Positions 24,819 to 35,769 of a stretch of DNA of 46,551 nt are shown here, in pieces (positions within the stretch are counted from its first letter, which is position 1; each line of letters begins with the position of its first letter). The DNA is from Actinomycetes bacterium (GTDB lineage: Bacteria; Actinomycetota; Thermoleophilia; BMS3ABIN01), in assembly GCA_021791195.1 (NCBI GenBank), contig JAJYXB010000001.1:1-46551 (forward strand). Direction: 5' to 3'. The notes under the pieces are model-generated. The model did no database searches, was not told the DNA's origin, and saw only the letters and a program-made list of their open reading frames with translations. The translations under genes were made by a program, and so were the position numbers.

Positions 24819-24894
24819 GCGGATGTGGCGTAGCTGGTAACGCGTCGGCTTCCCAAGCCGAAGATCGCGGGTTCGATCCCCGTCATCCGCTCCA
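24819..24894 (+). tRNA. tRNA-Gly (anticodon CCC), with encoded CCA
   Basis: Folds as a complete cloverleaf. The acceptor is GCGGATG/CATCCGC, the D-stem GCGT/ACGC, the anticodon stem TCGGC/GCCGA with loop TTCCCAA (CCC at 24852-24854), and the T-stem GCGGG/CCCGT with loop TTCGATC. The gene ends in TCCA. Its 3' half is repeated at 31108-31158 and is the integration site of the adjacent element. Confidence 0.95.
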
Positions 24895-24895
24895 A
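24845..24895 (+). repeat. attL core (51-bp direct repeat)
   Basis: Identical to 31108-31158. Similarity continues with one mismatch to 24908. It lies in the 3' part of tRNA-Gly, so integration keeps the tRNA intact. Confidence 0.9.
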
Positions 24896-24964
24896 CTATT
24901 TTTCCTGCAAAACGTAACAAATTCTATCATTCGCTTTTTCGTCAAACACGATAGCCTTTCTCTC

Positions 24965-24985
24965 TTCCCAGCACTATTCCCAGCA
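24965..24985 (+). promoter_or_regulatory. Candidate integrase arm-type sites, left end
   Basis: TTCCCAGCA occurs twice (24965-24973, 24977-24985) with 12-bp spacing, 70 bp inside the left core. The same pair with the same spacing lies at the right end. Confidence 0.65.
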
Positions 24986-25023
24986 TGCCACACGAATTTC
25001 GAGCTGAAAGGAAGGGAATATCC

Positions 25024-25317
25024 ATGTCACAAGACATCCAAAAATTTACGATCCGCCGCGATGGGAAAAAGGACTTATCCTTTCGCGGCCAGCTCATAGC
25101 CGAAGCATCAGACCACGAACATCAGGGACCGCAAAACACAAGATGGTCAGAGATCGACATCTACCGGACAGACTCCGGCGCTTACGTCGTGTCTCAGACG
25201 TTCGTCACCCGCTGGAAGCAAGAATATCCGGCACAAAGGGACTTCAAAGATGTAGCAAATCGGTATAGCATTACAAGTCAGCTTAGGTTTGATAGCCGGC
25301 AGATGTCGTTAATCTAA
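25024..25317 (+). CDS. Small soluble protein of unknown function (EXLDI-like)
   Basis: 97 residues from ATG 25024, preceded by the purine-rich GGAAGGGAA. The sequence contains R-D-G-K-K-D-L-S-F-R-G, then R-W-S-E-I-D-I-Y-R-T and G-A-Y-V-V. This resembles a small actinobacterial family named for an E-x-L-D-I motif, but the match is from memory and unconfirmed. There is no signal peptide or membrane segment. A truncated relative lies just beyond the other att site at 31373-31516. It lies directly inside the left end of the element, a usual place for cargo. Confidence 0.7.
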   Translation: MSQDIQKFTIRRDGKKDLSFRGQLIAEASDHEHQGPQNTRWSEIDIYRTDSGAYVVSQTFVTRWKQEYPAQRDFKDVANRYSITSQLRFDSRQMSLI

Positions 25318-25331
25318 GTTCGGGAGGAATA

Positions 25332-25970
25332 ATGAAAGCCAGCAAATTTTTGATTGCCTGTTTTGTGCTCGGACTTGTTATGGCCGTTGTCGGTTGTGAC
25401 TCCACGGGTTGGACTCCGCATGATAGGGCCACGGCTAACACCACGGCAACCGCTACTATTGCTACCACTGCAACTACAACTGCTACCACAACCGCTACCA
25501 CTGAAGCGACCGTAGGAGCGTGGACGCCAACAACACCGGGGGCTATGCCTCCGCCTGACACCACACCCACGCCACCCACGCCAGAGCCGATTGATTACAC
25601 CGCTGCCATCTTGTCAGCCACAAAGGGTGCTGTCGGAGATCGAGCCATGAGTGATCAGATATCATATAGCCCTATTGGCCAAGTCGCCACGGTCGCCTTC
25701 CAATGCGGGGCCGAAGATTTAACGCTCTATGCTACTCAGGCAGATATTGTAAAAATTGCCAAGGCCGTAGTTAATGCTTCGCCGGATGTACAGACGATAA
25801 ATGTTGATGCCTATTCCGATGCCACTGATAAATTTGGGAATACGAAGAATGAGATAGCTATCAGCACTCAGTTTAAACGCGCAACAGTAGACGAGATCAA
25901 TTCAGATAATTTTGATCCAACCAATCTCCCCCGAGTTGCTGATTTCTACAAAGAAATGATCAAGTTCTAA
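25332..25970 (+). CDS. Secreted lipoprotein with Thr-rich linker
   Basis: 212 residues. A signal peptide with a lipobox ending in V-V-G-C (Cys about residue 22) is followed by a Thr/Ala/Pro-rich linker to about residue 85, then a compact domain of about 125 residues with no recognised motif. The linker is typical of surface lipoproteins that hold a domain away from the membrane. GGGAGGA lies upstream of the ATG. It is probably cargo of the element that alters the host surface. It could be cotranscribed with the gene at 25024, 14 bp upstream. Confidence 0.8.
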   Translation: MKASKFLIACFVLGLVMAVVGCDSTGWTPHDRATANTTATATIATTATTTATTTATTEATVGAWTPTTPGAMPPPDTTPTPPTPEPIDYTAAILSATKGAVGDRAMSDQISYSPIGQVATVAFQCGAEDLTLYATQADIVKIAKAVVNASPDVQTINVDAYSDATDKFGNTKNEIAISTQFKRATVDEINSDNFDPTNLPRVADFYKEMIKF

Positions 25971-25975
25971 GTCGG

Positions 25976-26098
25976 GTGGAGAATATTTCTCGCAAAGCCG
26001 TTAGTGGGAGCGATCTTTCCAACCTGGCGAAAGAGGCGCTGGAGGCAGCGGCGGAGAACGATCCAGCCTTCGAGGGACTAACGCTCGAAGAAGTCTAG
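25976..26098 (+). CDS. Possible 40-residue small protein or remnant
   Basis: An open frame from GTG 25976 to TAG 26098 encodes an acidic helix-like peptide ending L-T-L-E-E-V. It starts six bases after the lipoprotein stop and has an overlapping GGGTGGAG purine stretch but no clear ribosome site. It may be a real short gene, the end of a decayed gene, or chance. Confidence 0.3.
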   Translation: MENISRKAVSGSDLSNLAKEALEAAAENDPAFEGLTLEEV

Positions 26099-26141
26099 CA
26101 GGCGCGCCAGACAGAAGCCTAAGATGGCTTCTGGGGGCTTC

Positions 26142-26185
26142 AAAGGGAAGGGTTCGAGGAGATCACGGACCCTTTCCCTTTTTTT
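26142..26185 (+). terminator. Intrinsic terminator (end of rightward cargo genes)
   Basis: Arms AAAGGGAAGGGT (26142-26153) and ACCCTTTCCC (26169-26178), followed by seven Ts. It ends the rightward cargo unit and overlaps the last codons of the convergent leftward operon. Confidence 0.8.
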
Positions 26186-26588
26186 GTCCGTGCAACGGTG
26201 CATTCGCCGCCTCCTTGCGGTGGGCCTCGAATACTTGCATGGCGAAGCTCTCCCGCTTCTGAATCGCTGCCGTGAGTCCCCGCCGGTCAAGCGTCCGGTA
26301 AGCGCGGTGAAGCTCGTTTTCCAGGCGTTCCCACTCCGGGGAATCCAGCGGGCAGCCGGCAGGCCATGCCCGAGAAAGTCGCTGGGTTGATTCGAGCAAC
26401 AGCGCGTCAGCTTGTTCCTGGTGGCGGAGAAGAGAAACGACTTCTGGTTTGTGGGCCTTGAGTTCCGTAATCAGTCCAGGCGGCAGCTCGCGGCTGAAAT
26501 CGTTTGCTTCGATGTCAAGAGCATCATCTTCAAGCCTGAGTTCGTAATAATGGCCGGTGACCTGCTGCCAGATTTCGAGGGCTTTCAT
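26163..26588 (-). CDS. Small helical protein, replication-module partner
   Basis: 141 residues. The N-terminus (residues 1-55) has L-R-L-E-D-D-A-L-D-I-E and L-K-A-H-K-P-E-V-V-S-L-L-R, resembling the TubC-like docking fold that often accompanies phage-type primases. The rest is charged and helical, with no catalytic motif. It overlaps the primase-helicase gene as ATGA and is the last gene of the leftward replication operon. A role as partner of the primase is inferred from that coupling. Confidence 0.6.
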   Translation of the reverse strand: MKALEIWQQVTGHYYELRLEDDALDIEANDFSRELPPGLITELKAHKPEVVSLLRHQEQADALLLESTQRLSRAWPAGCPLDSPEWERLENELHRAYRTLDRRGLTAAIQKRESFAMQVFEAHRKEAANAPLHGQKKGKGP

Positions 26589-28858
26589 ATCGCTAACCTG
26601 CCCTGCTCTCGAAGCTCGGAAAGCTCCGGTTCTGGTTCGTCGCTGTCACCCGGTACACTTGGGACAAACGGGACACTTGGGACAGAATCGTCGGATAAGA
26701 CATATCGGCGGCGGAGTTTGGATAGCACCGCGTCATCGTAAACCAGCCACCGGCCCTTTTGACCGTCAATCCTGTCTTGCTTAGTTTTCAGTCCTAAGTT
26801 CTTGAGAATCTGCCCTACCGCCTGGGACGTTTTGCCCGTCTTTTCCGCGATGTCCTTACTTTGGATATGAAGCAACCTCTCACCGGTGGGAGTTTGAAAT
26901 GTCCCGTCTGCCCCGTTTGTCCCGTTTGTACCGGGACTCAATGAGAAGAGGGTTTCCACTACCTGCCCTACGAGGGTAGAAGCCCGTTGTTCGATAAGTT
27001 CCCGCTGTAGTTCCCGGATGAATGCCTTGTAATCCTCAAGCACGTCATCCATGCCGGCGAACACGGCCCCGAAAGCACTACTAACCTGCCTGAGCCTGGG
27101 CTCAATGTCACTGCCGAGATCAAACGCCCCGGCCTGCTCTGCATCCGTACCGTGCCAGTTGCGAAAGCGGAACATCAGCAGCTTGTTCCTTAAGTTGGCT
27201 TGCTCCCGGTAAAAGCTCTTACCGAGGAAAACCGGGATGTCGGTTCTGTCGGTTTCCTGCATGATCTCAGTCAGACACCTGGCCTCAAGCGCCGCGTCCT
27301 TGAACCGGCGGCGGGTGCCAAAGACTTTAGGGCAGTAGGTGGGCAGGAATTGCAACTTGTCCGGGTTGTCCTTCATAGCCCTGATTACAGGGCGGCCACG
27401 CTCGAAGCCGCAATTTAGGATCGTAATTACCTCGTTATACTCATCGCTGTTTTTCATGTCGGCTTCATCCAAAACCACAGTGCCGCCCCACCTGCGAATC
27501 ATCCGGTAGATAGAGGCCGGGGTGACTGAGCCGGAAACCACGGTGGACTTGTAGCAGAGTCGGCCTACTGTGTCGATCAGCCGCGACTTGCCGCAGCCAG
27601 TGTCACCTAGCGCCCTGAGATACGGCAGCGTATTCATTTTGTCGTACAGATAAGTCAGCAGAACGTAGTAGGAAGCAAACTTGCGAAAGTTTGGGCTCAC
27701 GTCCACGTAACGGTTGATATGTTCTTGAATTGCGGTGAGAAGTGACTTGGTATCGCCGTAATCAGCAGCGCCGGTGGGCAACAAAACGGCCAGGAGTTCG
27801 TTCTCATCGGAAGGGAGCCGAGGGATTATCCTTTTCCCGTCCTCAAGTATAATTTCGTCTGCTTCCTCAACCTGGCCGTTGGCTATCTCGTACCTCAAGA
27901 AAGTCAGATGATGTCCGCCTAACAAAACTTCATCGTAAAGAAAACTGTCATCTGCATGGAAGCTTGTTTGACGCGGCTTCTCATCGTCTTTACGCGGGCG
28001 TTTCGGCCTAGATTTCGATGCTGGCGGTTCCGGCTCCGGCGGCGGGTTCTTAACCAGTTCCCTCAGCCCCTCCACCGTGCCGCCTGCCGCTATCCAGTCG
28101 CTAACGTCGCCCTTCGCCGGCAGGCCGGGCAGATGGATCACCTTCACGTCGGCAGCTACGCCTTCCAAAGCCTGCTTAACGTCCTGTGCGTGCTTGTGGC
28201 CTGTCGTGTCATTATCGGGGATGATAACCACATGAGCGCCCGCGAGGGCCTGAGAATAGCTATCAAGCCACTTGCCGGCACCACCACAATTACAGGTAGC
28301 CACGAGGCCGAGCTTTTTATCGAGATTGTCAGCATCCTTTTCACCCTCCACCACGTGAATGGTCTGACCGGCAGCAACCGCTTCGATCACTTCCGGCAGC
28401 CGGTACAGCACCCGGCGGGTGTCATTGAGGTTATTGATCAAGCCGCCCTTACCGTCCGGCCTTCGCTGATAGAAGCCTTTGGGATTGAGTCTTACAGCCT
28501 GATAAAGCAGGTGGCCGGACTCATCAACGTAATCATAAGTAGCGATGATCTCTTTCTTCTGTTTCTTTGCTTGGCCGCCGTCTGGAAACAAATCCTTCAA
28601 CTCCAAATCCATCGCCACGAGGATGTTTTCCGTTTCGCAGCCGGCGTGGCAATTGAGAAGGACTTTGCCGTCCGCCTCGGATACGCTCAGAGAATTTCGT
28701 TTGTCATCATGGGATGGACACCTGGCGGTCCATGAACTGTTACCGCCCTTGACGCCCTCGAGCCTTGAGAGGACTTTTTCGATGGGGGGTGATATAGTTG
28801 GTCCACCGAAGTTTTGAGAGACCTCCGCCGCCCGTGGGGGTTTTTCATTTCCAGTCAT
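26585..28858 (-). CDS. Primase-helicase replication protein (zinc finger, TOPRIM, AAA+-like)
   Basis: 757 residues in three parts. The N-terminal zinc-finger-like region has C-P-S-H-D-D and C-H-A-G-C (about 47-75), as in CHC2-type primases. A TOPRIM domain follows with V-E-G-E-K-D-A-D-N and I-I-P-D-N-D-T-T-G-H (about 165-225). The C-terminal half carries Walker A G-D-T-G-C-G-K-S-R and Walker B V-V-L-D-E-A-D, an ATPase/helicase core. A low-complexity V-P-S-V-P run precedes the C-terminus. It would start and unwind replication of the excised element. It overlaps its neighbours by TAATG and ATGA. Confidence 0.9.
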   Translation of the reverse strand: MTGNEKPPRAAEVSQNFGGPTISPPIEKVLSRLEGVKGGNSSWTARCPSHDDKRNSLSVSEADGKVLLNCHAGCETENILVAMDLELKDLFPDGGQAKKQKKEIIATYDYVDESGHLLYQAVRLNPKGFYQRRPDGKGGLINNLNDTRRVLYRLPEVIEAVAAGQTIHVVEGEKDADNLDKKLGLVATCNCGGAGKWLDSYSQALAGAHVVIIPDNDTTGHKHAQDVKQALEGVAADVKVIHLPGLPAKGDVSDWIAAGGTVEGLRELVKNPPPEPEPPASKSRPKRPRKDDEKPRQTSFHADDSFLYDEVLLGGHHLTFLRYEIANGQVEEADEIILEDGKRIIPRLPSDENELLAVLLPTGAADYGDTKSLLTAIQEHINRYVDVSPNFRKFASYYVLLTYLYDKMNTLPYLRALGDTGCGKSRLIDTVGRLCYKSTVVSGSVTPASIYRMIRRWGGTVVLDEADMKNSDEYNEVITILNCGFERGRPVIRAMKDNPDKLQFLPTYCPKVFGTRRRFKDAALEARCLTEIMQETDRTDIPVFLGKSFYREQANLRNKLLMFRFRNWHGTDAEQAGAFDLGSDIEPRLRQVSSAFGAVFAGMDDVLEDYKAFIRELQRELIEQRASTLVGQVVETLFSLSPGTNGTNGADGTFQTPTGERLLHIQSKDIAEKTGKTSQAVGQILKNLGLKTKQDRIDGQKGRWLVYDDAVLSKLRRRYVLSDDSVPSVPFVPSVPGDSDEPEPELSELREQGRLAI

Positions 28859-29073
28859 TAGGCGACACCTCCAGTCGCGTCTTTGCCCGGGCTTGAAAAA
28901 TCCTTAGCTACGCCGCTGTTTTCTGGCTCAGAATCGATCTTGGGCCGTTTGCCAAACCTCACCGGCCAAAGCACGCAATCCTCACACGGGCAGAGGCGGA
29001 CTTCCTTGGGAGAATCCGCGCAACAGTCCAGGCATTTGAGCCTGATGCGTTGCATGGGGGTTAGATTGGCCAT
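28858..29073 (-). CDS. Small Cys-rich, zinc-finger-like protein
   Basis: 71 residues. The N-terminal half has six cysteines arranged C-x2-C-C and C-x-C-x2-C, in the pattern of a small metal-binding domain, with basic residues between. The C-terminal half is charged and probably disordered. It is linked to both neighbours by one-base TAATG overlaps and sits between the excisionase and the primase. It may be a DNA-binding regulator or a replication accessory factor; no family was identified. Confidence 0.7.
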   Translation of the reverse strand: MANLTPMQRIRLKCLDCCADSPKEVRLCPCEDCVLWPVRFGKRPKIDSEPENSGVAKDFSSPGKDATGGVA

Positions 29074-29285
29074 TAAGATTCACCCCCCGGCACTACCCGC
29101 CCGGATTCCATGTAATTCATGACATCGGAAATCGCGTAGCGGACGCTCCGCCCGATTTTTGAATAGGGAATCCCGCGTGCCTCAGCTCTTTGATTGCGCA
29201 GCGTATGAACGGATATTCCCGTCATGTCGGACACTTGCTTTTCGTTCAAGTACTTTTCCCAAGCTGCTTTTTGTGCTTCATTCAT
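29073..29285 (-). CDS. xis: Excisionase / AlpA-like DNA-binding protein
   Basis: 70 residues with the helix-turn-helix of MerR/AlpA-type excisionases: E-K-Q-V-S-D-M-T-G-I-S-V-H-T-L-R-N-Q-R, followed by the G-I-P-Y-S-K-I-G-R-S-V-R-Y wing. It probably bends the att DNA and directs the integrase towards excision. It also may regulate the leftward operon, of which it is the first gene. AAAAAAGGAG lies upstream of its ATG. Confidence 0.88.
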   Translation of the reverse strand: MNEAQKAAWEKYLNEKQVSDMTGISVHTLRNQRAEARGIPYSKIGRSVRYAISDVMNYMESGRVVPGGES

Positions 29286-29321
29286 TTGATAATACTCCTT
29301 TTTTGTGGTTCTTTGGGCATT

Positions 29322-29344
29322 AAAAAAGCCGCTCGCTGGCGGCT
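29322..29344 (-). terminator. Intrinsic terminator in the xis leader (second)
   Basis: Leftward hairpin AGCCGC/GCGGCT with a six-base loop followed by six Us. It lies between the promoter and the xis start, so it may attenuate the operon. Confidence 0.7.
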
Positions 29345-29368
29345 CCGCTGTCCTGCTTATGTGATTGT

Positions 29369-29377
29369 CTATCTCAT
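29369..29377 (-). other. Three-codon minigene ATG AGA TAG
   Basis: Leftward ATG-AGA-TAG with GGAGG (29385-29389) seven bases upstream, an ideal ribosome site. It lies between two terminators in the xis leader. Minigenes like this can stall or drain ribosomes. Confidence 0.45.
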
Positions 29378-29422
29378 TGGTTTACCTCCAATAAAAAGGT
29401 TCCTCCCGCGAAGTGACGAAGC

Positions 29423-29445
29423 AAAAAAACCGCCCCCGAGGCGGT
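29423..29445 (-). terminator. Intrinsic terminator in the xis leader (first)
   Basis: Leftward hairpin ACCGCC/GGCGGT with a five-base loop and seven Us, about 30 bases after the predicted start of transcription. Confidence 0.75.
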
Positions 29446-29484
29446 GTCTGATTTTGGGTACGGCTCGCCCCCCACATATTTTCA

Positions 29485-29513
29485 ATATTAGCATGTCCCG
29501 AGATGCTATGCAA
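29485..29513 (-). promoter_or_regulatory. Promoter of the xis operon, with dyad operator
   Basis: Leftward -35 TTGCAT (29508-29513), 17-bp spacer, extended -10 TGCTAATAT (TAATAT at 29485-29490). The inverted repeat TAGCAT-N8-ATGCTA lies between the boxes and would suit a repressor. Confidence 0.7.
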
Positions 29514-29580
29514 TACTAAACTTGCCTTCTTGTCCCCTGATTTAACGGGGAATGACTTGTGTCAGTAGTTCATGGGCAAG

Positions 29581-29596
29581 GGAATATTGATATTCC
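29581..29596. promoter_or_regulatory. 16-bp palindrome, candidate operator
   Basis: GGAATATTGATATTCC is a perfect 7-bp dyad with a two-base centre. It lies in the 507-bp gap between xis and integrase. The rest of that gap also has a TAATAAC/GTTATTA inverted repeat near 29641-29670, but no gene. Confidence 0.5.
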
Positions 29597-29792
29597 AGCA
29601 CATCGTAAGCGTATGGGGCTGTTATGGTTTTGTTGTCGTTCTGTAATAACAGGCCAGAGGAAAAGTTATTATACTGCGATTTCTAGCGTTTGACTGCCTG
29701 CGGAATCTGCCCCCAAAATATACCAGAGATTAACCCCCCCTTCCCCGTCTGGTCAGGCTCCCGCCGCCATCTGTCAAAATAGGTTGTTGTTT

Positions 29793-30935
29793 TCATGCCT
29801 TTAGGTGTATCACATTCTCAGCAGCCGCCTCTTCCACTAGCCGTCCGGCCAGCTCCGCCGCCCGTCTGAGGATGCCGTCCTCAAAGTGCGCATACCGATG
29901 CGTTACACTGCGGCCCTTGTGTGTCAGCAGCCGGGATACCACGTCCAGGGAAACGTCGTGAGAGACAAGCAGAGAAGCGAACACGTGCCTGAGTCCATGC
30001 AGGGGCCTAAAATCAGCCGGTAAGCCTGCCTCTGCCTTGATCTGGTTCACCTGTTGTTTGATATCCACGAGCTGGCCGCCGCCCCTGCCGGGAAAGACGT
30101 AAAGTGAATCAGACTTTGCCGCTTGAATTTCGTTAAGCAGCCGCTCCGCGTAGCTACTCATGGGGATGATCTCATCGCGGCCTGATTTTGCATCCTTAAG
30201 CGTGATGTTCTTCCGGTGCCAGTCGATGTCATCCCACGTGAGTTTGAACATCTCTCCGCGTCTCATACCAGTGTAAAGCGCAAGCTGCATCATGGTTGCG
30301 CCTTGGCGCTGTGGGCTATTGTATTTAACGTGGTGGTCGATCACCTCCAGCAGTCTCCTAAGTTGCACGGGATTGAGGTCTTCCGTTTTTACGTTATCCA
30401 ACCTCGGCATTTGAACTGTGAATGTCAGGCCCCGGCATAGGCCGCGCTTGAGGCCAAAGTTACAGAGCCGCCTAAGCAGCTCCAGGGCGTGGGCTTGAGT
30501 CTGAGGGGATTTGTCTTTTAGCTCACGTCGTTTTAGCCGGTCGATGTCCAGCACGAGAATGTCGGCAGGCTGCTTGTCTGCAAATCGTGGCGCAAGGTAG
30601 CGGTTAAAAAGGGTGCTGTCGCTGGCATGGTTTTTATGTCCAGGGTTAAACTCCAGATATTCCTCCCAGAGCGCCGATATGGTCCAGGTCTTCTTTTTCC
30701 TGGCGGCCTTGGCCCGGCGCTCCTGGTTTGGTAGCTGCTCCCCATGCATCCGCTTAGTCCTAATGTGCGATGCCCTGGCCGGTGTCATTGCGTCGCGGTG
30801 TTGGCGGCCTGCCACCTCTTCGACCTGCTTAAAGGTTCCGTCACCCTGGCGCAGCCGGTAGAAGATGTAAAAGGTTCGCTCTCCGTCGTGGTCACGGTAA
30901 TACACACCCGGATATTTCGTCTTCTGGCGCTTCAT
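29793..30935 (-). CDS. int: Tyrosine-type site-specific integrase
   Basis: 380 residues. An N-terminal arm-binding part is followed by a core-binding region and the catalytic domain. The catalytic residues are seen as Y-T-G-M-R-R-G-E (first Arg), H-G-L-R-H-V-F-A-S (His and second Arg), L-T-H-K-G-R-S (third His) and the tyrosine in T-H-R-Y-A-H-F. The strand places it at the right end, reading towards the centre of the element. The preceding 170 bp contain repeated TTCCCAGCA motifs and the right att core. It would recombine attP with the tRNA-Gly 3' half. Confidence 0.95.
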   Translation of the reverse strand: MKRQKTKYPGVYYRDHDGERTFYIFYRLRQGDGTFKQVEEVAGRQHRDAMTPARASHIRTKRMHGEQLPNQERRAKAARKKKTWTISALWEEYLEFNPGHKNHASDSTLFNRYLAPRFADKQPADILVLDIDRLKRRELKDKSPQTQAHALELLRRLCNFGLKRGLCRGLTFTVQMPRLDNVKTEDLNPVQLRRLLEVIDHHVKYNSPQRQGATMMQLALYTGMRRGEMFKLTWDDIDWHRKNITLKDAKSGRDEIIPMSSYAERLLNEIQAAKSDSLYVFPGRGGGQLVDIKQQVNQIKAEAGLPADFRPLHGLRHVFASLLVSHDVSLDVVSRLLTHKGRSVTHRYAHFEDGILRRAAELAGRLVEEAAAENVIHLKA

Positions 30936-30954
30936 GATCTGCCTCCTTGGCCTT

Positions 30955-30990
30955 TGCTGGGAAACGCTCTTCCCAGCACTCTTCCCAGCA
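30955..30990. promoter_or_regulatory. Candidate integrase arm-type sites, right end
   Basis: TTCCCAGCA at 30970-30978 and 30982-30990 (12-bp spacing), with an inverted copy TGCTGGGAA at 30955-30963, just upstream of the integrase start. Confidence 0.65.
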
Positions 30991-31107
30991 CGAAGACAGT
31001 ATATTGTGGTAAACTAGCGCAAGTCAAGGGAAGATGTATGGGGTTAAAGTGCCTGCTAATCAGGGAAAAGAGGTGAGCTCGTGTCAAAAGAGGGAAAAGG
31101 TGATATT

Positions 31108-31158
31108 TCGGCTTCCCAAGCCGAAGATCGCGGGTTCGATCCCCGTCATCCGCTCCAA
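31108..31158 (+). repeat. attR core (3' half of tRNA-Gly)
   Basis: Identical to 24845-24895; matching continues to 31171 with one mismatch. The 5' part of the tRNA is missing, so this copy cannot encode a tRNA. Confidence 0.9.
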
Positions 31159-31372
31159 TTATTTTTCCTGCTCATTACGAGCTTTGCCGGCTTTCTGTCA
31201 CTGATATCCTTCCTGCTGGTCGTATTGATAGCCATGATCTTTCTTCCCGCGTAAGTCTCGTCACGAAAAGCCCTCCGCCGGTTGCTGGTTGCCTAACCAG
31301 AGATTATTCGGCGCGGAGCTCCCTGAAAGAATCGTGGGGTGCGGGAAACTACGTGTCACTTAAGAGGGGAGG

Positions 31373-31516: not shown

Positions 31517-31554
31517 TTTTGGCAATAAGGTCTTTCGTAACAAAACCTGGGAAG

Positions 31555-34500
31555 ATGAAGGTGGGGCAGATCGATTTAAAGATTAAGCTGATTGCGGCTT
31601 TTTATATTCTGGCGCTGCTGGTACTTATCGTGCCCGCGAGTGGCCTGGCCAGCCGGGTCTCACCGGCTCTCTTGGCAGCTGGCAATACGCAATCTTCCCT
31701 TGTTTCTCTTCCCCAGGGGAAATCTTCCCTGGCTGACATGGGACAGGACTTGGGGAAAGTTCCCGGCAGCATGCCAATCAGGCTGGTTGTGCTCCTGTCG
31801 CTGCGTGATGAGCGCGGCCTAAAAGATCTGATCGCTGCTCAAAACACACCCGGTTCCGCGGACTATCACAAGTTTCTTTCGCCAGAGCAGTTTCTGGACC
31901 GGTTCGGACCAACCCAGCAAAATTATGATTCTGTTGCCAATTTTCTGGTCCAAAATGGCTTTGCCATCGAAAAGACCCCTAACCGGCAGCTGATAACTGC
32001 TACGGGGACGGCGGTCCAAGCCGAGCAGGCGTTTAACACAGAACTGCACAGCTACAAGATCAAAGGCAAAGAGGAATATGCAAACGTAACTGCGCCTCAG
32101 ATACCTGTGTGGCTGTCCGGCATTATCAAGGGAGTACAGGGACTTGATTCCAGGAAGCTGAGCACGGCTGTCAGGCACTCAGCCAACCCGGCGGCCGTTC
32201 AGCAATCAGGAAGCACTTCTGGTTACACGCCTTTGCAGATCGAAACAGCATACGATTATCCGATCTTGCACGGCTCCAACGGCAGCGGCAGGACAATCGC
32301 CGTAGCGGCGGCCGGTGACTTCTATGATTCCGACCTGCAGGCTTTTGAGACCCGGTTCGGATACCAGGCCGCCGTAACCCGTCAGTGGAAATTAGGAAAC
32401 CCGGTCGTCGATGACATGGAGACCACGATGGACGTGGAATGGTCCACAGCGCTGGCCACCGGCGCCAATGAACTCGTTTACATTATCCCCGCCACCAACG
32501 GCAGCGCCTCCTTGAGCGATTTTACCACTGAATATAACCAGATCGTCACTGACAACAAAGCCGATGCAGTCACCTCGTCCTGGGGAGCATGCGAAATTTC
32601 AACCGGCGCCAGCCTGATGGCCCAGGATGACAGTATCTTCATGCAGGGCGTTGCTCAAGGTCAAACGTGGTTTGTAGTCAGTGGCGACTACGGCTGCAAC
32701 TGCGACGCAGATGGCAGTTTTGGTGTTCAATATCCCGCTTCCTCCCCCTATGTCACTGCCATGGGCGGCACCACGCTTCAGCTAAACAGCTCCGGCGGGA
32801 TTGCCAGTGAGATTGCCTGGAATGATCATCAAGGCCTTTCATCCAAGGATGCCACAGGAGGGGGGACCTCACTATTTGAGTCGCTTCCGTCCTGGGAATA
32901 CGGCTCTTCGTATTTTGCCAACGGCAGGAGGTGGAATTCGGATTTTGCCATGGACGCTGATTATCTCAACAGCGGCATGCTGACGGTGTATAACGGTACT
33001 TGGTACTCTGCCGGCGGAACCAGTATTGATGCCCCGTTTGCCTCTGCTCTGGCGGCGGAGGTCGGGCAGCACTGGAATAAGCGGTTGGGCATCTTTGCCG
33101 CCCGGATTAACCAGTTGGCGAACTCGTCTGACTACTCCAGGGTGCTTCATGACATTACTTCCGGAGACAATAGCGGATTTTATACAGCTTTCTCTCTGGC
33201 CGTCTCTCCAAATTACTCAACGGATCAGACTCTTTTTGCCGGCACTGGCGGCGGTGGCGCCTTAAAGTCTACTGACGGCGGCTCAAACTGGAGCGCGGTA
33301 AATACCGGCCTGGCCAACAACTTGTATGTTTACTCCCTGGCCGTATCGCCGGCCTTCGCCACCGACCACACCCTCTTTGCCGGCACATACGGCGGCGGCG
33401 TCTTTAAGTCCACCGACGGCGGCTCAAACTGGAGCGCGGTCAACACGGGCCTGACTAACATGTATGTCTACTCCCTGGCCGTGTCGCCGGGCTTCGCCAC
33501 CGACCACACCCTCTTTGCCGGTAGCTACGCCGGCGCCTTTAAGTCTACCGATGGCGGCGCCAGCTGGAACGCCGCAAACAGCGGGTTTCCTGCTAACACG
33601 AGTATTCAATCCCTGGCCGTATCGCCGGACTTCGCCGCCGATCACACCATTTTTGCCGGCACCAGGGCCAGTGGCGTCTATAAGTCAACCGACGCCGGCG
33701 CCAGCTGGAGCGCGGTAAATACAGGGCTTACCGACATGGGAATATGGGCGCTGGCCGTATCGCCGGGCTTTGCCACCGACCACACCCTCTTTGCCGGCAC
33801 CACTACCGGCGTCTTTAAGTCAACCGACGCCGGCGCCAGCTGGAGCGCGGTAAATACGGGGCTTACCAACACGGACATTGACTCCAACTCATTGATTCTC
33901 TCCCCGAACTTTGCCAACGACCAAACTATCTTTGCCGGCACTTACGGCGGCGGCGTCTTTAAGTCAACCGACGCCGGCGCCAGCTGGAGCGCTAGCGGGT
34001 TTTCTGGCGTGGATATTTGGGCGCTGGCCATCTCCCCAAACTATGCCAGCGACAACACCATCTTTGCCGGCCCCAACAGCGGCAGCGTCTATAAATCAGC
34101 CGATGGCGGCGCCAGCTGGACTGCGGCAAATAGTGGATTTGCCAGTGGATATTATTCGGCGCCTGGCTGGGATCCGCCGACCGGGTGGGGCAGCCCGGAT
34201 GGTTACATGCTCATGTCGCTCTTTGAGCCCGATACGACTCCGCCGACAGTTAGCAACGTGCTGCCCACAGGCAGCATTGACACAACAACAACAACGATCA
34301 GCGCCGACTACTCCGATTCCGGCTCCGGTATCAACACCAACTCCGTGATTGTTAAATTGGACGGCTCGGCGCTCTCCGGCTGCACGGTTACAGTCACACA
34401 TGTTTCCTGTCCGGCCAGCGCTTTGGCCCATGGTGCCCACACCATCAGCGGCTCTGTTTCCGACAACGCCGGCAATACCGCTTCAATAAACGGCTCCTTC

Positions 34501-35769
34501 ACGGTGGTGCCGCGCGACTACTACTGGACCTGGTACGATAATGTTTACGGCGTCAACTGGGTGCTGTTGGCCAACCCGCCAGGCGCCGCTGCCAGTCTGA
34601 ACTTTAGCCTTTCCATTGCCGGCACCCCCAGGTCGCTGCCTGGCGGCGGGGTGGTGGCTCCGGGTAAGATCATTACCCCCACTTACCCCGGAATCATGGG
34701 CGGCCCGGTTGTAGCCAGCTCCCTTACCGGAGGCAATGGCATCGTTTCCCAGCGGGTCCTGTGGGCGGGCGGCAGTTCCCTGGAAGAAGTGCCGGGCAGC
34801 GGGGCGTCAAAACTCTCCGACCACTACTACTGGACCTGGTATGATCAGTCAAGCTCCGGCTTCACAAACTGGATACTGATTGCCAACCCCTCGGCCACCG
34901 AGTCGGTGCACGCGGTCATCTCCTTTACCAACCTGGCCGACGGCCAGCCGGTAAGCCAAGCCAGCGACATCGCTCCAGGGGGCAACTGGAATCCCACCTT
35001 CCCCGGCAAGATGGGCGGTCCGGTAGAGGTAAAGGCCTACCTTACGGGTGGCACCTGGCCCGCCGAGAAGCGCAACGTCATCGCCTCCCAGCGCGTTCTT
35101 TCCAGCGGCGGCTCCGCCTTTAACGAGGTCCCCGGCATCCCGGCGGCCCAGCTGTCTGACCGCTACCTGTGGACCTGGTACGACAATAAGTCCCCGGGAG
35201 CCAGTGACTGGGTGCTGATCGCTAACCCGGGTGTTGATAGCAGCGGCAATCCCCAGGGAACCGTCACCGCCCACATCAGGATCGCCGGCGTCTCTTATGG
35301 ACCGTACACCATCGCCCCGGGCAATAACGTCACGCCCACCTTCCCTGGCGAGATAGGCGGCCCGGTCGAGGTCTGGACCGACTCCGGCAACGTTATCGCC
35401 TCCCAGCGCAGCCTCTTTGGCCCCTCCTTTGAAGAGGTGCCCGGTCTGGCAGCCTCTCAGAGCGGCGGTTACTCGGCGCTGGCCGCCAGTTATTACTGGA
35501 CCTGGTACGACCAACAGAGCCCGGGCATGAGCAACTGGGTGCTCGTGGTCAACCCGGGCAGCACCACGGTTAACAATGTCACAGTCAAGATTGCAGGCAC
35601 CACCGTCTGGGGTCCGGCCAACCTCGGCCCCGGCCAGAGCGTTACGCCTAGCTTCCCCGGCCTGATTGGCGGCCCGGTGGAAGTTGATGCCAGCGGTCCG
35701 GTAGTGGCTTCACAGCGGGTCCTTTATAACGGCTACTTTAACGAGGTGCTGGGGAGCGTGCTGGGCTAA
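31555..35769 (+). CDS. Secreted S53 (kumamolisin-like) peptidase with inserted seven-repeat propeller and WTWYD modules
   Basis: About 1404 residues from ATG 31555; the frame extends to TTG 31519 without a ribosome site. A signal peptide is followed by a pro-kumamolisin domain (about 70-190) and an S53 catalytic domain with E289 and D293 (E-T-T-M-D), oxyanion D378 (S-G-D-Y-G) and nucleophile S490 (G-G-T-S). After H-D-I-T-S-G-D-N-S-G the peptidase is interrupted by seven BNR-like repeats (about 544-862; S-L-A-V-S-P, T-L-F-A-G, K-S-T-D-G-G, W-S-A-V-N-T-G-L). It then resumes with A-P-G-W-D-P-P-T-G-W-G-S-P. An Ig-like domain (about 892-985) and four WTWYD modules complete it. It is probably an acid-type protease held at the surface, with a lectin- or protein-binding propeller. 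Confidence 0.9.
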   Translation: MKVGQIDLKIKLIAAFYILALLVLIVPASGLASRVSPALLAAGNTQSSLVSLPQGKSSLADMGQDLGKVPGSMPIRLVVLLSLRDERGLKDLIAAQNTPGSADYHKFLSPEQFLDRFGPTQQNYDSVANFLVQNGFAIEKTPNRQLITATGTAVQAEQAFNTELHSYKIKGKEEYANVTAPQIPVWLSGIIKGVQGLDSRKLSTAVRHSANPAAVQQSGSTSGYTPLQIETAYDYPILHGSNGSGRTIAVAAAGDFYDSDLQAFETRFGYQAAVTRQWKLGNPVVDDMETTMDVEWSTALATGANELVYIIPATNGSASLSDFTTEYNQIVTDNKADAVTSSWGACEISTGASLMAQDDSIFMQGVAQGQTWFVVSGDYGCNCDADGSFGVQYPASSPYVTAMGGTTLQLNSSGGIASEIAWNDHQGLSSKDATGGGTSLFESLPSWEYGSSYFANGRRWNSDFAMDADYLNSGMLTVYNGTWYSAGGTSIDAPFASALAAEVGQHWNKRLGIFAARINQLANSSDYSRVLHDITSGDNSGFYTAFSLAVSPNYSTDQTLFAGTGGGGALKSTDGGSNWSAVNTGLANNLYVYSLAVSPAFATDHTLFAGTYGGGVFKSTDGGSNWSAVNTGLTNMYVYSLAVSPGFATDHTLFAGSYAGAFKSTDGGASWNAANSGFPANTSIQSLAVSPDFAADHTIFAGTRASGVYKSTDAGASWSAVNTGLTDMGIWALAVSPGFATDHTLFAGTTTGVFKSTDAGASWSAVNTGLTNTDIDSNSLILSPNFANDQTIFAGTYGGGVFKSTDAGASWSASGFSGVDIWALAISPNYASDNTIFAGPNSGSVYKSADGGASWTAANSGFASGYYSAPGWDPPTGWGSPDGYMLMSLFEPDTTPPTVSNVLPTGSIDTTTTTISADYSDSGSGINTNSVIVKLDGSALSGCTVTVTHVSCPASALAHGAHTISGSVSDNAGNTASINGSFTVVPRDYYWTWYDNVYGVNWVLLANPPGAAASLNFSLSIAGTPRSLPGGGVVAPGKIITPTYPGIMGGPVVASSLTGGNGIVSQRVLWAGGSSLEEVPGSGASKLSDHYYWTWYDQSSSGFTNWILIANPSATESVHAVISFTNLADGQPVSQASDIAPGGNWNPTFPGKMGGPVEVKAYLTGGTWPAEKRNVIASQRVLSSGGSAFNEVPGIPAAQLSDRYLWTWYDNKSPGASDWVLIANPGVDSSGNPQGTVTAHIRIAGVSYGPYTIAPGNNVTPTFPGEIGGPVEVWTDSGNVIASQRSLFGPSFEEVPGLAASQSGGYSALAASYYWTWYDQQSPGMSNWVLVVNPGSTTVNNVTVKIAGTTVWGPANLGPGQSVTPSFPGLIGGPVEVDASGPVVASQRVLYNGYFNEVLGSVLG
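33186..34145 (+). repeat. Seven tandem BNR-like repeats (about 135 bp each)
   Basis: Seven repeats of about 43-48 residues, each with L-A-V-S-P, L/I-F-A-G, K-S-T-D-G/A-G and W-S-A motifs. Seven is the number of blades in a closed propeller. DNA segments such as the one encoding KSTDAGASWSAVNTGL are nearly identical between copies 4 and 5. Confidence 0.85.

Follow-up and report, generated by a model that had tools for sequence, protein, structure and literature searches.

The human S53 peptidase TPP1 binds calcium through D517, V518, G539, G541 and D543, at a site equivalent to the one discussed here, and the self-maturation of the enzyme needs calcium (PMC2914745). Propellers built from Asp-box blades typify Vps10 receptors and glycoside hydrolases (PMC2716378), and highly repetitive propellers have repeatedly been amplified from single blades, with a high incidence in Actinobacteria (PMC9218822). 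A gene in the window (the whole 46,551-nucleotide stretch that was analysed, from an Actinomycetes bacterium) combines the two: a complete seven-blade Asp-box propeller has been spliced into an S53 peptidase, at a turn of variable length within its C-terminal calcium-binding segment. In the open-access literature, as far as its incomplete coverage goes, we found no description of a propeller inside S53.

Architecture of the gene

The gene lies in an uninterrupted reading frame (31519-35769, forward strand, 1416 aa) that opens with TTG at 31519, and its start is likely the ATG of residue 13, ahead of a hydrophobic signal-like stretch, in agreement with the start given by an earlier sequence-only reading of this DNA. 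The best PDB match found with phmmer is pro-kumamolisin (1t1e), in two separate segments (residues 74-552 and 876-905) with the propeller between them, and the middle of the protein matches the Pfam families Sortilin-Vps10 (5.6e-15), YCF48 and BNR. Seven repeats of 44-47 aa each occupy residues 557-876 and are seen in the DNA as well; the blades start at nt 33187, 33328, 33466, 33604, 33742, 33883 and 34015, and seven copies of the Asp-box motif S-x-D-x-G-x-x-W are found in 33187-34146. The two-segment match and the Pfam matches bear out the order that had been read from the letters, with an S53 domain, seven BNR-like repeats and then the end of S53. The parts are listed in Table 1, where the boundary of the insert was placed by comparison with relatives that have none.

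Table 1. Parts of the nested S53-propeller gene in the window
Feature	Coordinates	Strand	Evidence
Whole nested S53-propeller gene	31555..35769	+	ORF, ATG, signal-like stretch
Kumamolisin-type activation propeptide, residues 77-211	31747..32151	+	Pfam PF09286 (Pro-kuma_activ), E 1.2e-34
N-terminal part of the S53 catalytic domain, residues 230-551	32206..33171	+	kumamolisin alignment, HMM
Inserted seven-blade Asp-box/BNR propeller, residues 552-876	33172..34146	+	Pfam, repeats, model
S53 C-terminal end GYYSAPGWDPPTGWGSPDGYMLMSLFE, residues 877-903 (27 residues)	34147..34227	+	second HMM segment, phmmer, structure alignment
Ig-like stretch	34333..34506	+	weak Big_13 match, below cut-off
Four WTWYD...WVLIANP repeats, about 110 aa each	34516..35766	+	common to other secreted proteins of the genus

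The N-terminal S53 part holds E301, D305, D390 and S502 and ends with D545-I546-TSGDN. By alignment E301, D305 and S502 are the catalytic Glu, Asp and Ser of kumamolisin and D390 is its oxyanion Asp (E78, D82, S278 and D164 in kumamolisin numbering), and all four are intact. The calcium-site residues fall on both sides of the insert, D545-I546 before it and A881, G883 and D885 (A881-x-G883-W-D885) after it, which slightly corrects the sequence-only reading: the loop sequence is split by the propeller. Ala881 stands where six of six relatives keep Gly, and the change is a one-residue deletion. The Gly that the window protein has lost is kept in a second insert-bearing gene (G004:C34), and Ala881 could still serve if this calcium ligand is a backbone carbonyl. 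A propeller added to the C-terminus of a truncated S53 domain was considered and ruled out, because the end of S53 resumes with the correct residues and folds back.

The repeats at the end of the protein have the fuller pattern YYWTWYD...WVLIANP...GGPVEV...ASQR...EVPG, four copies of it in this gene, and recur on numerous secreted proteins, both in this genus and in a related one (L033, L035, L036, L039-L042, L046). Searches of Pfam and NCBIfam gave no match to the repeat, which is perhaps a module for surface anchoring or secretion. Upstream, the gene start lies about 380 bp outside the right att site of a 6.3-kb integrated element (24819-31171), which begins with a tRNA-Gly (24819-24894), the 3' end of which is repeated nearly exactly at 31108-31171 (98% over 64 bases). 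Between the tRNA gene and the repeat of its end, the element carries a tyrosine integrase (29793-30935, reverse strand) and a primase/helicase-like gene (26585-28858, reverse strand).

Predicted structure

In a model of the full nested protein, the S53 parts on either side of the insert superpose jointly on residues 2-356 of kumamolisin-As (Z 43.4, 2.4 A; model residues 173-844, 324 residues taken in). The propeller part of this model has low confidence, since only two rows of the alignment covered it, and its placement relative to the S53 core is not fixed by the model; the insert was therefore folded alone. The isolated insert (AF2, pLDDT 88.1, pTM 0.89) shows seven strand groups and aligns over 7-326 with the designed seven-blade propeller 7bie (Z 33.4), and also with the designed seven-blade 7big (Z 33) and with GH74 propellers (Z 31). 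The insert is, in this model, a closed seven-blade ring. In blade 1 it starts at the inner strand, and in blade 7 it stops beyond the outer one, which means that the ring is opened at a linker between blades, and the predicted fold would bring its two ends to linker distance. The proposal that a closed propeller can sit in this loop with the host fold unbroken is supported by both models, which are the kind of check that had been suggested for it, and by the empty site of the orthologues: the repeats are predicted to close and the S53 core to match kumamolisin across the insert, and neither of the outcomes named beforehand as refuting it (an open ring, or an S53 core that lacks its calcium loop) was obtained.

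Relatives and origin of the insert

The genus was sampled with six species, the one of the window included, all Actinomycetota MAGs and several of them labelled Thermoleophilia. The insert is absent from five intact S53 genes (G001:C3, G002:C33, G005:C36, G004:C27 and G005:C23), all of which read D-I-T-x-G-x-N and then directly G-x-Y. The one further case of an insert in this loop that the search turned up is G004:C34, from another MAG, with 353 residues and seven blades at the same residue as the 325 of the window protein. When the insert is removed in silico, an ordinary S53 core is left. The cores of the sister-species pair G004:C34 and G005:C36, with and without the insert, are 77% identical.

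How unusual this is can be seen from the length of the loop between the two calcium-site Asp, which in about 100 reading frames found with an S53 profile (from Actinomycetota, Acidobacteriota, Chloroflexota, Bacillota, Polyangium, archaea and others) is 15-69 residues, with 340 in the window protein and 369 in G004:C34 as the sole exceptions. It is because ordinary S53 proteins hold 15-69 residues there that we call the insertion site a length-variable turn. The profile gave no other domain-size insert among the matches listed from 299 genomes of the class, nor in 396 genomes of the phylum, and 79 loci from GTDB species had no further one; S53 matches that ended early turned out, once retrieved, to have loops of 43-69 residues or truncated or frameshifted ends. 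On viral contigs neither the S53 core nor the insert alone gave matches, and distant BNR proteins of phages, which came up with the propeller profile, were used only for alignment. Judging from these surveys, a whole domain at the S53 calcium turn is rare.

The likely source of the insert is the free BNR proteins of the genus, since its identity is 60% to L040, one of them in the same genome, and 59% to L039 of a sister species. The two inserts share only 46% identity. The genus is rich in large free BNR proteins whose blades are numerous and alike (L040, L039, L041-L048), L040 being a protein of 1445 aa on contig 6 of G000. In the tree of S53 cores, G004:C34 pairs with the insert-less G005:C36 (support 100/100), and a clade of the two insert-bearing cores is rejected (AU p 2.5e-6). 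As these cores are not sisters, the insert must have been captured twice, exchanged, or lost several times. The best fit is capture on two occasions at a single permissive site; an exchange between paralogues is less likely, as is one capture followed by several exact losses. Compared blade by blade, the two inserts have no shared register, the in-register shift coming third of seven (permutation 0.28). A direct repeat, AATAG[C/T]GGATTT (N-S-G-F, AATAGYGGATTT), flanks the insert on both sides (33169-33186 and 34129-34164) and is a possible trace of recombination, and the ends of the insert also carry the similar flanks SGFYTA and SGYYSA.

Role of the propeller

The protein is best read as a secreted, probably acid-active S53 peptidase of the sedolisin/kumamolisin kind. 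We hypothesize, with about even confidence, that the propeller is an accessory binding or targeting module that is rigidly held on this enzyme. The two ends of the ring would be adjacent, each joined to one side of the turn, so that the host fold closes around the insert, and a propeller held by two such tethers could bring the protease to a polymer, a surface or a protein substrate. Maturation would still proceed through the propeptide, by self-cleavage.

It is rather unlikely, we think, that the insertion is a tolerated product of recombination that does little by itself, or that has cost the protease part of its function. The core of the window protein departs from otherwise invariant columns at 24 of 237 positions (31696-33171), against 3-6% in the relatives, about twice as often, and no branch is longer than its own, at 0.44, where the others outside one near-identical pair have 0.15-0.22. 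This faster core and the lost calcium-site Gly would fit relaxed constraint as well, BNR and WTWYD modules are produced and shuffled in large numbers in this genus, and the short N-S-G-F repeat at both junctions points the same way. On the other hand, a full-length seven-blade insert, an open frame and the catalytic residues have been kept in two separate species, and the branch of G004:C34 (0.15) is not accelerated.

That the propeller is a gate over or beside the active cleft, limiting the entry of substrate as in prolyl oligopeptidase, we regard as improbable. Gating of a serine peptidase by a propeller is established in the S9 prolyl oligopeptidases (PMC9147577). The predicted ring is closed and seven-bladed like theirs, but the poor propeller part of the nested model does not fix where the domain lies. 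In S53 the loop of insertion is also part of the C-terminal calcium segment and would not lie on the rim of the substrate cleft, which counts against a gate.

A ligand on the propeller might also switch the activity of the protease, or the self-cleavage of the propeptide, by way of the calcium site, which seems to us quite improbable. The insert parts the calcium-binding residues into two halves, and the dependence of TPP1 self-maturation on calcium is at the equivalent site (PMC2914745), but the window protein has Ala for one calcium-site Gly that the other insert-bearing gene keeps, and the loop is naturally variable in length. Since ordinary S53 proteins vary so much there, coupling does not follow from closeness to the calcium site alone, and the suggestion in the sequence-only reading that ligand binding is linked to protease activity was not borne out. 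The strongest form of the idea is very improbable: the propeller would be a sensor that reshapes the calcium site upon ligand binding and controls self-maturation or activity, an allosteric switch acquired twice at the same residue within one genus. If true, it would be a natural allosteric switch made by domain nesting.

That assembly has fused an S53 gene with a BNR gene can practically be dismissed, and a frameshift was likewise rejected, for although the genus has many BNR genes and these are repetitive, the frame is open across both junctions, the S53 end picks up with the correct residues, and G004:C34, from an independent MAG of another study, has the same layout and junctions at the same residue.

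Since sister species have the same S53 enzyme, in one with a complete propeller and in the other lacking it, nature has set up a clean experiment on domain nesting, and such pairs make the effect of a closed ring in the calcium loop directly measurable. That the S53 calcium turn accepts a whole domain could help protein engineers to fix a binding module rigidly to an acid protease.

Comparison with known systems

With kumamolisin and sedolisin (MEROPS S53) the window protein shares the propeptide, the Glu, Asp and Ser together with the oxyanion Asp, the subtilisin-like fold and the C-terminal D-I...G-x-G-W-D segment, in which Ala881 stands for the first Gly, but this calcium segment is broken by a propeller of 325 residues, where about 100 relatives have 15-69 residues. 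The fungal sedolisins also have inserts at surface sites of S53, of which the cluster-specific insert CSI3 is near the calcium site, but these are tens of residues long and not a folded domain (PMC6278154).

Prolyl oligopeptidase (S9) likewise unites a seven-blade propeller with a serine peptidase domain (PMC9147577). Its catalytic domain is an alpha/beta hydrolase of another clan, whereas that of the window protein is S53 and subtilisin-like; the layouts are similar without a common origin, and a gating position is established for prolyl oligopeptidase alone. The Asp-box propellers of GH74, YCF48, 3b7f and Vps10/sortilin have the same S-x-D-x-G-x-x-W type of blade motif and the same build of the blade, but the ring described here is an insert inside a protease, and sortilin differs further in having ten blades followed by a cysteine-rich 10CC module, against seven blades and no cysteine module. 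The dispase autolysis inducing protein DAIP (5fzp, 6fhp) is a propeller that binds proteases, and its match to the insert is by fold and should be taken as a lead only; it is a separate protein of about 20% identity that binds metalloproteases of the thermolysin type, while the propeller of the window protein is nested within the S53 peptidase itself.
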